Assembly: GCA_023132135.1 (NCBI GenBank)
Contig: JAGLYR010000046.1
Coordinates: 1-55,158 of the forward strand
DNA from: Candidatus Eiseniibacteriota bacterium
GTDB taxonomy: Bacteria; Arandabacterota; Arandabacteria; JAGLYR01
DNA length: 55,158 nt
Direction of reading: 5' to 3'
Below the pieces are notes generated by a model. It was not told the origin of the DNA, did not search any database, and worked only from the letters and a program-made list of their open reading frames with translations. Of this stretch, positions 27,972-39,854 are shown piece by piece. Positions within the stretch are counted from its first letter, which is position 1; each line of letters begins with the position of its first letter. Made by a program: the position numbers and the translations under genes.

Positions 27972-28086
27972 CATTCCTCCGCCGCGGGAATTTCAAAGAG
28001 CTTTTCGTGCTAGCCGCCGTGTACCGAACAGGTTACAATTCCTGAGTACCCCTCTGCAACTCCGTCCCACCGATCAGGAGTGCATG

Positions 28087-29400
28087 ATGGCCGACAAGAA
28101 CACTGGCGACAGCCGACTGGAATCCCTGGATCAGGAAAACCGCAGGCTGAAGCGGGCCGTCGAAGAGCTGACCATCCTCAACGACCTCGCCAGGGAGATC
28201 GGCGCGTCCACGAATTCCCAGAAGATCATGAATACCATCATCCGCCGAGCACTTCGGGCCGTCCGTGCCGAGCAGGGCGTGATCACACTGGTGGACCGGA
28301 AATCCAGCACGCCGATGAGAACTCTCGTCCGAACGATGATCAGCTCCGCCGACAGCAGGCCATTCCACCTGGACCAGAGCATTCTGGGCTGGATGATCCT
28401 CAACAAGAAGCCTCTGATGGTGAATGATCCCCCGGTGGATGACCGTTTCCGCGGGGTCCGTTGGGATGAGTCGATCCAGACCCTTCTGGCCGCACCCCTT
28501 CTGGTCAAGTCCGAGCTGATCGGAGTCCTGACCCTGTACAACAAGAAGGAGGAGGACGGCGGCTTCGCAGAAGAAGACCAGCGCCTTCTTGCCATCATTG
28601 CCACCCAGTCCGGACAGGTTGTGGAGAACGCCCGCCTCTACGAGGAGGAACAGGCTCTGTTCAGAATGAAGGAAGAGCTGCGCCTCGCTTCCGGGATCCA
28701 GCACCGGCTGTTGCCGAAGACGTCACCACAGGTTTCGGGGTACGACATTGCGGGGGTCAGCATCCCGACCGAAGCTGTCGGCGGAGACTATTTCGACTTC
28801 ATGTTGCTCGATGGCGGGCGCCTGGCCTTCTGCCTCGGGGACGTTTCCGGCAAGGGGCTTCCGGCCGCCCTTCTCATGTCTAACCTACAGGCCACAGTTC
28901 GCGGGCAGGCCCCCCTGGCGCACTGTCCCAAGGAGTGTATCGAGCGCGCCAACCGGTTGCTCTTCGGCAGCACCGAGCCGGACCGCTTCGCAAGCCTGTT
29001 CTACGGTATTCTTAATCCCCACAATCACGATCTGTGCTACTGCAGCGCCGGCCACGAGCAGCCCTTCCTCATTCGCAAGGGTGCGGAACCGTCCCGCCTG
29101 GAAGCAGGCGGGATGCTCCTGAGTTTCCTGGAAGAGGTCTCCTACGAAGAGGCCTGCGTTTCCCTCGATCCGGGAGATGTGCTGGTAATCTACTCAGACG
29201 GAATTACCGACGCCCTCAATGGCCTCGATGAGGCCTATGGGGAGCCTCGTCTCCTGGATCTGATCCAGAACAGCATGGAGGAATCGGCCGCCGATCTCAT
29301 GGGCCGGATCATTCGCGAAGTCCGGGAGCACGCCGGGGACCGCCCCCAGTTTGATGACATGACGCTGGTGGTCATCAGGCGAGAGGTGAGCGAGACATGA
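28087..29400 (+). CDS. GAF-SpoIIE (PP2C-type) serine phosphatase
   Basis: A 437-residue cytosolic protein. A short N-terminal coiled coil (ENRRLKRAVEELTILNDLA) leads into a GAF domain (~30-185, ending AIIATQSGQVVENARLYEEE). A linker and a SpoIIE/RsbU-type PP2C domain (~215-435) follow, with GGDYFDFMLLDGG, GDVSGKGLPAALLMS, SAGHEQPFLI and YSDGITDALNG, which includes the metal-binding Asp residues. It can reverse phosphorylation made by the neighbouring kinases or act in a partner-switching pathway; the target is not shown. I chose the ATG at 28087 because AGGAG lies six bases upstream. Its stop overlaps the next kinase start as ATGA, so phosphatase and kinase 2 are coupled. Confidence 0.93.
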   Translation: MADKNTGDSRLESLDQENRRLKRAVEELTILNDLAREIGASTNSQKIMNTIIRRALRAVRAEQGVITLVDRKSSTPMRTLVRTMISSADSRPFHLDQSILGWMILNKKPLMVNDPPVDDRFRGVRWDESIQTLLAAPLLVKSELIGVLTLYNKKEEDGGFAEEDQRLLAIIATQSGQVVENARLYEEEQALFRMKEELRLASGIQHRLLPKTSPQVSGYDIAGVSIPTEAVGGDYFDFMLLDGGRLAFCLGDVSGKGLPAALLMSNLQATVRGQAPLAHCPKECIERANRLLFGSTEPDRFASLFYGILNPHNHDLCYCSAGHEQPFLIRKGAEPSRLEAGGMLLSFLEEVSYEEACVSLDPGDVLVIYSDGITDALNGLDEAYGEPRLLDLIQNSMEESAADLMGRIIREVREHAGDRPQFDDMTLVVIRREVSET

Positions 29401-34135: not shown

Positions 34136-34151
34136 ACCAAGACGGGGACCG

Positions 34152-34210
34152 GAGAGGCGAAAGCCGAGAGGCGAAAGGCGAGAGGCGAAAGGCGAGAGGC
34201 GAAAGGCGAG
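34152..34210 (+). repeat. 14-bp tandem repeat, four units
   Basis: Four copies of GAGAGGCGAAAGGC (the first with CC for GC) plus a partial GAG, between kinases 3 and 4. A related 7-bp array (CGARAGC) lies at 39619-39674 after kinase 5. The minus strand reads as a run of RLSPFAS-like codons, but no gene is supported. Confidence 0.8.
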
Positions 34211-34292: not shown

Positions 34293-36913
<2,621 letters not shown>

Positions 36914-36917
<4 letters not shown>

Positions 36918-38176
36918 TCGGCAAAACCATCTCCCACTACAAGATCCTTGAGAAGCTCGGCGAAGGCGGTATGGGGGTCGTCTACAAAGCCGAGGACACC
37001 AAGCTTCAGCGCACGGTTGCCCTCAAGTTCCTTCCTCCCGCATTGACGATCGACCCCGACGCCAAGGAACGTTTCATCTACGAGGCGCGGGCTGCATCCG
37101 CCCTGGATCACCAGAACATCTGCACGATCTACGAAATCAATGAAGCCGATGAACAAACCTTCATCGCCATGGCTCATATCCAGGGCCAGACCCTGAAGGA
37201 GAAGATCCGGTCCGGTCCGCTGAAGCTCGATGAGGCTCTCGATATCGGCATCCAGATCGCCGAAGGTCTGCGTGAAGCCCACAGGAAGGGCATCGTTCAT
37301 CGAGACATCAAGAGCGCCAACATCATGGTCACGGATGACGGTCAGGCGAAAATCATGGATTTCGGACTGGCCAAGCTGACCGGGCGGACGAATCTCACCA
37401 AGGAAGGCACTACGCTCGGGACCGTTGGCTACATGTCTCCCGAACAGGCTCGGGGAGAAGCCGTGGATCACCGGACCGACATCTGGTCTCTTGGCATTTT
37501 AGTGTACGAGATGGTAACCGGACGGCTGCCCTTCAGGGGCGACTACGAGCAGGCCGTCGTCTACTCAATCCTGAACGAAGAACCCGAGCCGATGACGGCC
37601 CTGCGCACCGGTGTTCCGATGGAACTGGAACGAATTGTGGCCAAGGCGATGGCGAAAACACCGGGTGAACGCTACCAGCACGTGGACGAAATCCCCGTGG
37701 ACCTGAGAGCGATCAAGATGATGCCGAGTGGCGTCTCGAGCAGCTACTCTTCAATGATCAACGTGTCTCGCGCCTCTGCATCGCGCCCTACGCGATGGAA
37801 ACGAGCAATTCCCTGGGCTCTGGTTGTCCTCCTGGGGATCACTGCGGGTGTTGCCTGCCGGAGATTGTGGGGCAGAGCTCCAGAAGGATCGTCTGCAGTC
37901 AGGCGTCTCACTCTACGTCTCCCTGATACAGAGCCTCTCTGGTTAAGCCTCGGGTTCCAGGAACCCAGCATGGCGTTGTCGCCGGATGGGACAGAGCTCG
38001 TTTACGTTGCATACCGTGACGGCGCTCGACAGCTGTACTTGCGAGAGATGGATCAGTTTGATGCCAGACCGATCCCCGGCACGGAAGACGGGCGGAATCC
38101 AATATTTTCTCCGGATGGAGAATGGATTGCCTTCTTCACCGGCGGCAAGCTGAAGAAAATCTCCCTGAGTGGCTGA
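36914..38176 (+). CDS. Ser/Thr kinase 5, N-terminal part of a gene split by TGA
   Basis: A 420-residue product: the complete Hanks-type kinase domain (MIGKTISHYKILEKLGEGGM, VALKFL, HRDIKSANIM, DFGLAKL, SPEQARGEAVDHRTDIW), a TM helix (~297-315) and the first blades of a TolB/WD40-like propeller (MALSPDGTELVYVAYR, IFSPDGEWIAFFTGG). It ends at LKKISLSG followed by TGA at 38174-38176. The same reading frame then continues as propeller to 39589, so the gene once encoded about 891 residues. HRDIKS instead of HRDIKP is a small departure from its relatives. The kinase half may still be made and membrane-bound, but with a truncated sensor. Confidence 0.85.
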
Positions 38177-38182
38177 GCATCC

Positions 38183-39589
38183 GTGATTCTCTGTGACGTT
38201 CTCCCGGATGTTTGCAGTGGAGGCCATTGGGGGAACGATGACTGTATTCTCTTTGCGCCTGGGCCCGGCCACGGGCTGGTCCGGGTCTCTGCCAACGGCG
38301 GTGAACCTGAGATTGTGACCATCCCCGACCTAACCAGAAACGAGCACGGACACCGCTACCCCGAGATCCTGCCTGGCGGTGAAGCGGCTCTCTTCACCAT
38401 CGCCGAAGTGGGCGGCTTCAGTACCGCGAGTATCGGGATCCTGTCCCTCAGGACCGGGGAGTGGAGAACTCTGATCAGTGGAGGCACGAGCCCTCACTAT
38501 CTGCCCACAGGCCATCTGGTCTATGCGCAGACCGGGGCATTGCTGGCCGCTCCATTCGACCTGGACAGGCTCGACGTGACTGGCCCACCCGTGCGAGTTC
38601 TCGAGGGTGTGATCACGATGGGCGGTGCCGAATACAGTGTGTCATCGGATGGCTCGTTGGCCTACGTGCCTGGAAGTGGCGGGTGGCCAGCGCGTGCCCT
38701 GGCTTGGGTGGATCGTCAGGGGCACTTTGAGCCACTGCCCCTCCCACCCCGGCATTACACTCTACCCCGCCTTTCGCCCGACGGCCGGCACATCGCCGTG
38801 GCGATCATCGACCGGCAGACCGGCAACCCGGACATCTGGGTGTGCGAGCTGGCTAGGAACACGCTGAGCCGGTTGACAACCAGTCCGGACGTCGATTTCA
38901 CACCTGTGTGGACCCCGGATGGCAAGAGGGTGACGTTTGCCTCCGCGGTGAGAGGACCCGAGCCCCGGCTGGATCTGGTGTGGATGCCTGTCGAAGGGAC
39001 GGAGCAGGAAGACATACTCCGGGATATGAAGGGCGCGCAATTCGCCAATTCCTGGTCCCCCGATGGCAGGACTCTCCTCTTCACGGATGAACACCCCGAA
39101 ACCAAGTTCGACATGTGGGCCGTGTCTCTGGAAGAAGGGAGCGAGCCGCGACCCCTGATCCGGACCCGCTTCAATGAAACGGCCGCTGTCTTCTCTCCGG
39201 ATGGCCGCTGGATTGCCTATCAGTCAGACAGGTCCGGACGTCACGAAGTGTACGTGAGACCCTGGGGAGAACCCGGACCCGACTACCCGATCTCTACGGA
39301 AGGCGGCACCGAGCCTGTGTGGTCTCGCGCCGGAAGTGAGCTTTTCTACAGGAACGCGAGCAGGATGATGGTGGTCGCGGTGAAAACGCGTCCTGAGTTT
39401 TCCGTATCAACGCCCGAGCTGCTCTTCGAGGGTGGCTACGAAACGTACAGGCTTGCTGCTAACTACGACGTTTCAGTAGACGGCCAACGTTTCCTGATGG
39501 TCTGGGAACAGGAAGCCGCTCCGACCGAGATCAATATTGTTCTTAACTGGGCTGAGGAAGTAAAGGAGCTATGCCCCACGGGGAGATGA
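38183..39589 (+). pseudogene. Propeller (sensor) half of kinase 5, downstream of the premature TGA
   Basis: An uninterrupted 468-codon frame in phase with the kinase upstream, from a GTG only 6 bp after the TGA. It encodes TolB/WD40-like blades (DDCILFAPGPGHGLVRVSAN, YSVSSDGSLAYVPGSG, RLSPDGRHIAVAI, VWTPDGKRVTFAS, SWSPDGRTLLF, VFSPDGRWIAYQSDRSG) and closes with LNWAEEVKEL. No Shine-Dalgarno or signal peptide precedes it, so independent export is unlikely. In related proteins the junction reads SLSGGA-V-LC, so the stop replaces a glycine codon. It is either an orphaned remnant, a readthrough product or a sequencing error. Confidence 0.75.
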
Positions 39590-39618
39590 AAACCGACGAG
39601 GGTACGGGGGGACAGGAC

Positions 39619-39674
39619 CGAAAGGCGAAAGCCGAGAGCCGAAAGCCGAGAGCCGAAAGCCGAAAGCCGAAAGT
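39619..39674 (+). repeat. 7-bp tandem repeat, eight units
   Basis: Eight consecutive 7-mers of the form CGARAGC (first CGAAAGG, last CGAAAGT). It is related to the 14-bp array at 34152-34210. It lies 30 bp after the kinase 5 stop. Confidence 0.8.
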
Positions 39675-39788: not shown

Positions 39789-39854
39789 ATGATCGGAAAA
39801 ACCGTAAGCCACTACAAGATTCTGGAAGAGATCGGCCGCGGGCCTGGGGCGTAA
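39789..39854 (+). pseudogene. 5' stub of a sixth Ser/Thr kinase gene
   Basis: The sequence reads MIGKTVSHYKILEEIGRGPGA and then TAA. The first 18 residues match the start of all five kinases upstream (MIGKxISHYxILEKLGEGGM), but the frame leaves the family right at the glycine loop. Everything downstream is lost: the next gene ends convergently 30 bp away. It is a clear remnant of a kinase gene removed by deletion. Confidence 0.85.

Follow-up and report, generated by a model that had tools for sequence, protein, structure and literature searches.

Recent nonsense mutation of one gene in a tandem kinase array, leaving a membrane kinase without its sensor, is the most economical reading, and probably the correct one, of an interrupted gene in the window analyzed here (the whole stretch of 55,158 nucleotides, from a Candidatus Eiseniibacteriota bacterium). 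The gene starts with an ATG at 36914 on the forward (+) strand, and its frame, encoding a kinase, a transmembrane (TM) helix, and a propeller, meets an in-frame TGA at 38174-38176, after ...KLKKISLSG, past which the phase is unchanged and the frame stays open for 470 codons, to a stop at 39587-39589. An earlier, sequence-only reading of this DNA was right about these coordinates and about the same-phase continuation (its 468 codons are counted from the GTG at 38183, the 470 from the TGA), and the observation of a gene with a single in-frame stop codon is confirmed. The finding is real but ordinary, and the stop does not look like a recoding signal.

As read, the kinase open frame (36914-38176, +) specifies 420 amino acids followed by the TGA, and comprises a kinase domain, a linker, one TM helix, and the first propeller blade. 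The protein kinase domain (residues 9-254; 36938-37675, +) matches Pfam PF00069 at 2.5e-51, with the catalytic motifs GEGGMG, VALK, HRDIK, and DFG all intact, and a single TM segment (RAIPWALVVLLGITAGVAC; 37802-37858, +) is predicted from a hydropathy of 1.8 over 19 residues. The rest of the TolB/PD40-type propeller (38177-39589, +) occupies the 470 codons beyond the TGA, in which no further stops and no frameshifts are found. Pfam places one PD40 blade before the TGA and several after it (2.1e-27), and the solved structure matching the propeller best is TolB. With a Pfam kinase domain ahead of the TGA, PD40 blades on both sides of it, and homologs that align continuously, the open stretch past the TGA is genuine coding sequence and not a product of chance. 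The propeller is not complete in one chain, as the stop falls after the first blade, with the remaining blades in the same phase.

Our comparison set consisted of 23 full-length homologs from another phylum (genomes G032, G095, G097, G129, and others), all of which can be aligned through the TGA site without a change of frame, mostly with identities of 33-39%, and with single open frames of mostly about 880-1180 amino acids. The column at the TGA is occupied by Gly in 18 of the 23, by Ala in four, and by Glu in one, while a stop, Cys, or Sec is found there in none of them. The relatives share a conserved turn at this site, with the consensus of about K[KR][IV]-x-x-x-GG-x-P-x-x-[IL]-C. The sequence-only reading had given SLSGGA-V-L-C for related proteins; the GG turn and the glycine position stand, with the motif corrected to the above consensus, and the glycine itself is not invariant. 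The single-base origin of the TGA from a glycine codon that it proposed is plausible, as some relatives use GGA at this very column, and GGA makes up 54 of the 268 Gly codons (about 20%) in the kinase cluster. No sister species or strain was encountered in the genomes searched: among eight genomes of the organism's own phylum no match spanning the propeller was found, and one scan of genome contigs gave a single weak match, of 34% over part of the propeller. Internal stops are absent from 21 of the 23 relatives. The other two, L100 (TAG, residue 800) and L107 (TAA, residue 187), are kinase-propeller genes in other draft genomes, each with a single in-frame stop away from the site discussed here, and these stops fall at conserved Trp and Tyr positions. 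Isolated stops are thus nothing exceptional in the kinase-propeller family.

The propeller beyond the TGA keeps 48 of 52 conserved columns, ranking 15th of 23, and is in this respect comparable to the intact relatives. Neutral decay was simulated as the divergence accumulated until the next stop or frameshift. With 10% indels, the second lesion arrived at a median of 0.6% divergence, and by 2.1% in 95% of the runs; without indels, the respective values were 1.6 and 6.6%. As no second lesion is present and the conserved columns are kept, the stop must be of recent date unless selection still acts on the long frame. The absence of further lesions equally fits a young stop, a long form that is still translated, or a wrong base in the assembly. 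The last of these, an assembly or consensus error, or else a minority strain allele, would mean that the organism has a sense codon at this position and a normal full-length sensor kinase. The contig (C287) belongs to a 3.4-Mb draft genome of 345 contigs, and no other flaw is seen in the gene, both of which agree with such an error, but the change is a substitution outside any homopolymer, a type of error that short-read consensus rarely makes, and we consider this explanation unlikely.

If the TGA is real, it is to be read in a genome in which TGA is a working stop codon. The genome encodes prfB (RF2; G000:C60, L148), and at the 5' end of this gene there is a frameshift site of the classical autoregulatory type (AAG GAG TTT CTT TGA C, after ...ELKEFL), from which the conserved body continues in the +1 frame. 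Such a site makes sense only if RF2 acts on UGA, and therefore TGA is a stop here. Of 187 gene ends scored by coding potential over 386 kb, 99 are TAG, 71 are TGA (about 38%), and 17 are TAA. The tRNAs read include an ordinary Trp(CCA), along with Gly(GCC) and Gly(CCC), the only Gly tRNAs found, and no UCA-anticodon tRNA for Gly or Trp was present among them besides tRNA-Sec, the genome being 96% complete. Genome-wide recoding of UGA is rejected on all three counts, RF2 with its autoregulatory site, TGA at over a third of the scored ends, and no suppressor tRNA; its exclusion in the sequence-only reading holds, now on stronger evidence. While a UGA at a Gly position is reminiscent of genetic code 25 (UGA = Gly, in SR1/Gracilibacteria), this genome differs in possessing RF2, in using TGA as a stop, and in that tRNA-Gly(UCA) was not found in it. 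A survey of the same 386 kb for other interrupted genes produced 11 candidates by coding potential, in most of which a start codon closely follows the stop, the arrangement seen between neighboring genes; one of these, tested by Pfam, proved to be two separate genes and not an interrupted gene.

Leaky readthrough of the UGA by a near-cognate tRNA (Trp) would make a little useful full-length kinase, the stop being either tolerated or regulatory. The propeller past the TGA shows no decay, as would be expected in this case, and in-frame stops in bacteria, conserved and with purifying selection downstream, have been reported to be widespread (Belinky et al., PMC7918605). The present gene resembles those described by Belinky et al. 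in having a single stop within an otherwise coding frame, but the non-artefact set in that work (PMC7918605) is conserved between species, whereas the kinase TGA is found in no second species, including any of the 23 relatives. The only tRNA-Trp found is the ordinary Trp(CCA), and no special RNA structure is apparent at the TGA: the 120-nt fold is no better than shuffles (z = -0.20), and the 40-nt fold after the TGA, at -10.6 kcal/mol, is equaled by 5% of shuffles and by 23% of the window's TGA sites. RNA folding after the TGA, where the sequence-only reading had suggested looking for a stem-loop, is accordingly unremarkable, and Rfam has no match in the window. On balance, leaky readthrough appears improbable.

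Alternatively, the truncated, sensorless membrane kinase may itself be the selected product, and the intact kinase motifs, the TM helix, and the translational coupling to the upstream kinase are compatible with this. Against it, none of the 23 aligned relatives stops at the TGA site, and decay of the propeller remainder would be expected, making this proposal very unlikely. We assign similarly little credence to the TGA being kept as a switch, with termination giving the sensorless kinase and rare readthrough, near-cognate or by selenocysteine insertion with an atypical SECIS, giving the full receptor; if it were true, sensing would depend on translational leakiness or on selenium status.

The selenocysteine reading, in which the kinase TGA is decoded via the organism's own machinery, needed testing, since this machinery, missed in the sequence-only reading, is present in full and UGA readthrough is therefore physically possible in this cell. 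The genome encodes tRNA-Sec (C107, 70 bits, anticodon UCA), SelB (C95, 356 bits), and SelD, the latter by two genes (G000:C86:3990-4913, (-), L170; and G000:C44:14710-15633, L169), one of which has an in-frame TGA within the SGAG-U-ACK motif and is a selenoprotein itself. This genome decodes UGA as selenocysteine, and a Sec-decoding member, with tRNA-Sec, SelB, and a Sec-containing SelD, is shown here for a sparsely sampled phylum. As a criterion for the bacterial SECIS we used a hairpin having 4 or more base pairs in its stem and a G-containing apical loop of 3-8 nt, positioned 12-37 nt after the TGA, with the Sec-SelD gene as a positive control. The control passes, with a 7-bp stem and a GGA loop located 17 nt after the UGA (hairpin of -7.2 kcal/mol, a value reached by 8% of the window's TGA sites). 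After the kinase TGA, in contrast, no such hairpin is found within range: in the stretch tested (38177-38236, +) there is no small G-containing apical loop, the best alternative hairpin has a UCCC loop, the minimum-energy fold has an apical loop of 15 nt, and the stability of the 40-nt fold is commonplace, as noted above. Published selenoprotein pipelines also require Cys homologs at the TGA, and the aligned residue in the relatives is Gly, Ala, or Glu, never Cys or Sec. The kinase gene thus shares with bacterial selenoproteins such as Sec-SelD an in-frame TGA in a genome with Sec machinery, but it has neither a SECIS nor Cys homologs, and the selenocysteine reading is close to refuted. This negative result is of use, in that an in-frame UGA from a truly Sec-decoding genome failed when judged against an internal SECIS control.

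Finally, termination at the TGA followed by restart at the GTG at 38183-38185 (+), the only nearby candidate, to yield a kinase and a separate propeller, deserves next to no credence: the GTG does lie close enough for a restart, 6 nt beyond the TGA, but its ribosome-binding site is weak (-3.0 kcal/mol versus -6.0 to -10.1 for the kinases of the array), the propeller remainder is preceded by no evident signal peptide or TM segment, so that the product would be cytoplasmic, on the wrong side of the membrane and also missing the first blade, and the relatives encode one chain, not the two separate proteins with a conserved GTG start that the sequence-only reading had named as counterevidence.

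The surroundings of the gene bear on its history. It comes fifth in a tandem array of kinase genes (25059, 29397, 31763, 34293, and 36914), which also holds a GAF-SpoIIE phosphatase (28084-29397). The other four kinases possess TPR repeats, and the TGA of the immediately upstream kinase-TPR gene (34293-36917, +) overlaps the ATG of the interrupted gene (ATGA). The kinase domain of the latter is closest to its array neighbors (62% amino acid identity, and 74% DNA identity over the first 722 nt), while full-length matches to the propeller occur only in another phylum, and codon scores for the propeller are -0.06 to 0.09 versus 0.27 for the kinase part. The sensor likely originated through domain shuffling or from a foreign source. 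A CCGAAAG tandem repeat follows the gene (39618-39673, +), and with a related copy at about 34146-34205 such repeats flank the block of the last two kinase genes; they are possible end points of duplication or recombination. Further downstream, at 39789-39854 (+), lies a kinase stub (MIGKTVSHYKILEEIGRGPGA, ending in a stop), whose DNA is 85% identical, over 48 nt, to that of the kinase at 29397. It retains a 21-codon kinase N-terminus (MIGKTVSHYKILEEIGRG), cut off by a stop immediately ahead of an AcrB-family gene that runs on the opposite strand. This stub is a remnant of a sixth array kinase, and direct evidence of gene loss in the array.

Among the known receptor kinases, the Hanks-type Ser/Thr kinases with a C-terminal PD40/TolB-type propeller are alike in the kinase-TM-propeller order, in the PD40 repeats, and in TolB as the best solved match. 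They are encoded in a single frame, whereas the present gene is interrupted after the first blade, and it further differs in that the codon statistics of its propeller depart from those of its kinase part. Another example is PknD/Mbk of Mycobacterium tuberculosis, composed of a kinase, a TM segment, and an extracytoplasmic NHL propeller thought to be a receptor (PMC1262709). The topology is the same, but the repeats in PknD/Mbk (PMC1262709) are NHL and uninterrupted, while those in the present gene are PD40 and interrupted.

Returning to the recent nonsense mutation as the preferred reading, it is based on the sequence, homology, the genome's machinery, and the absence of a SECIS, and is further favored by the sporadic single stops in relatives and by the neighboring kinase stub; on the opposing side, the kinase part is itself intact. 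On this reading, the gene is one for a membrane Ser/Thr kinase whose sensor is a TolB-like propeller outside the cytoplasm, and a single-base nonsense change, probably recent, has occurred at a glycine turn in the propeller. Given the machinery of the genome, RF2 would terminate translation at the UGA, and the main product would be a 420-residue kinase with a TM helix and about one blade, lacking a folded sensor and presumably unable to sense; about 84% of the propeller would never be made at useful levels. Positioned at the 3' end of an array that also contains a truncated kinase stub, the interrupted gene is probably best regarded as a young allele within a family undergoing turnover. Of the three options listed in the sequence-only reading, the evidence agrees best with a recent loss of the long form, while selected truncation and readthrough are without positive evidence. 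Only retention of this TGA in a sister genome would make the case more important; as it stands, it illustrates turnover in tandem bacterial receptor-kinase arrays.
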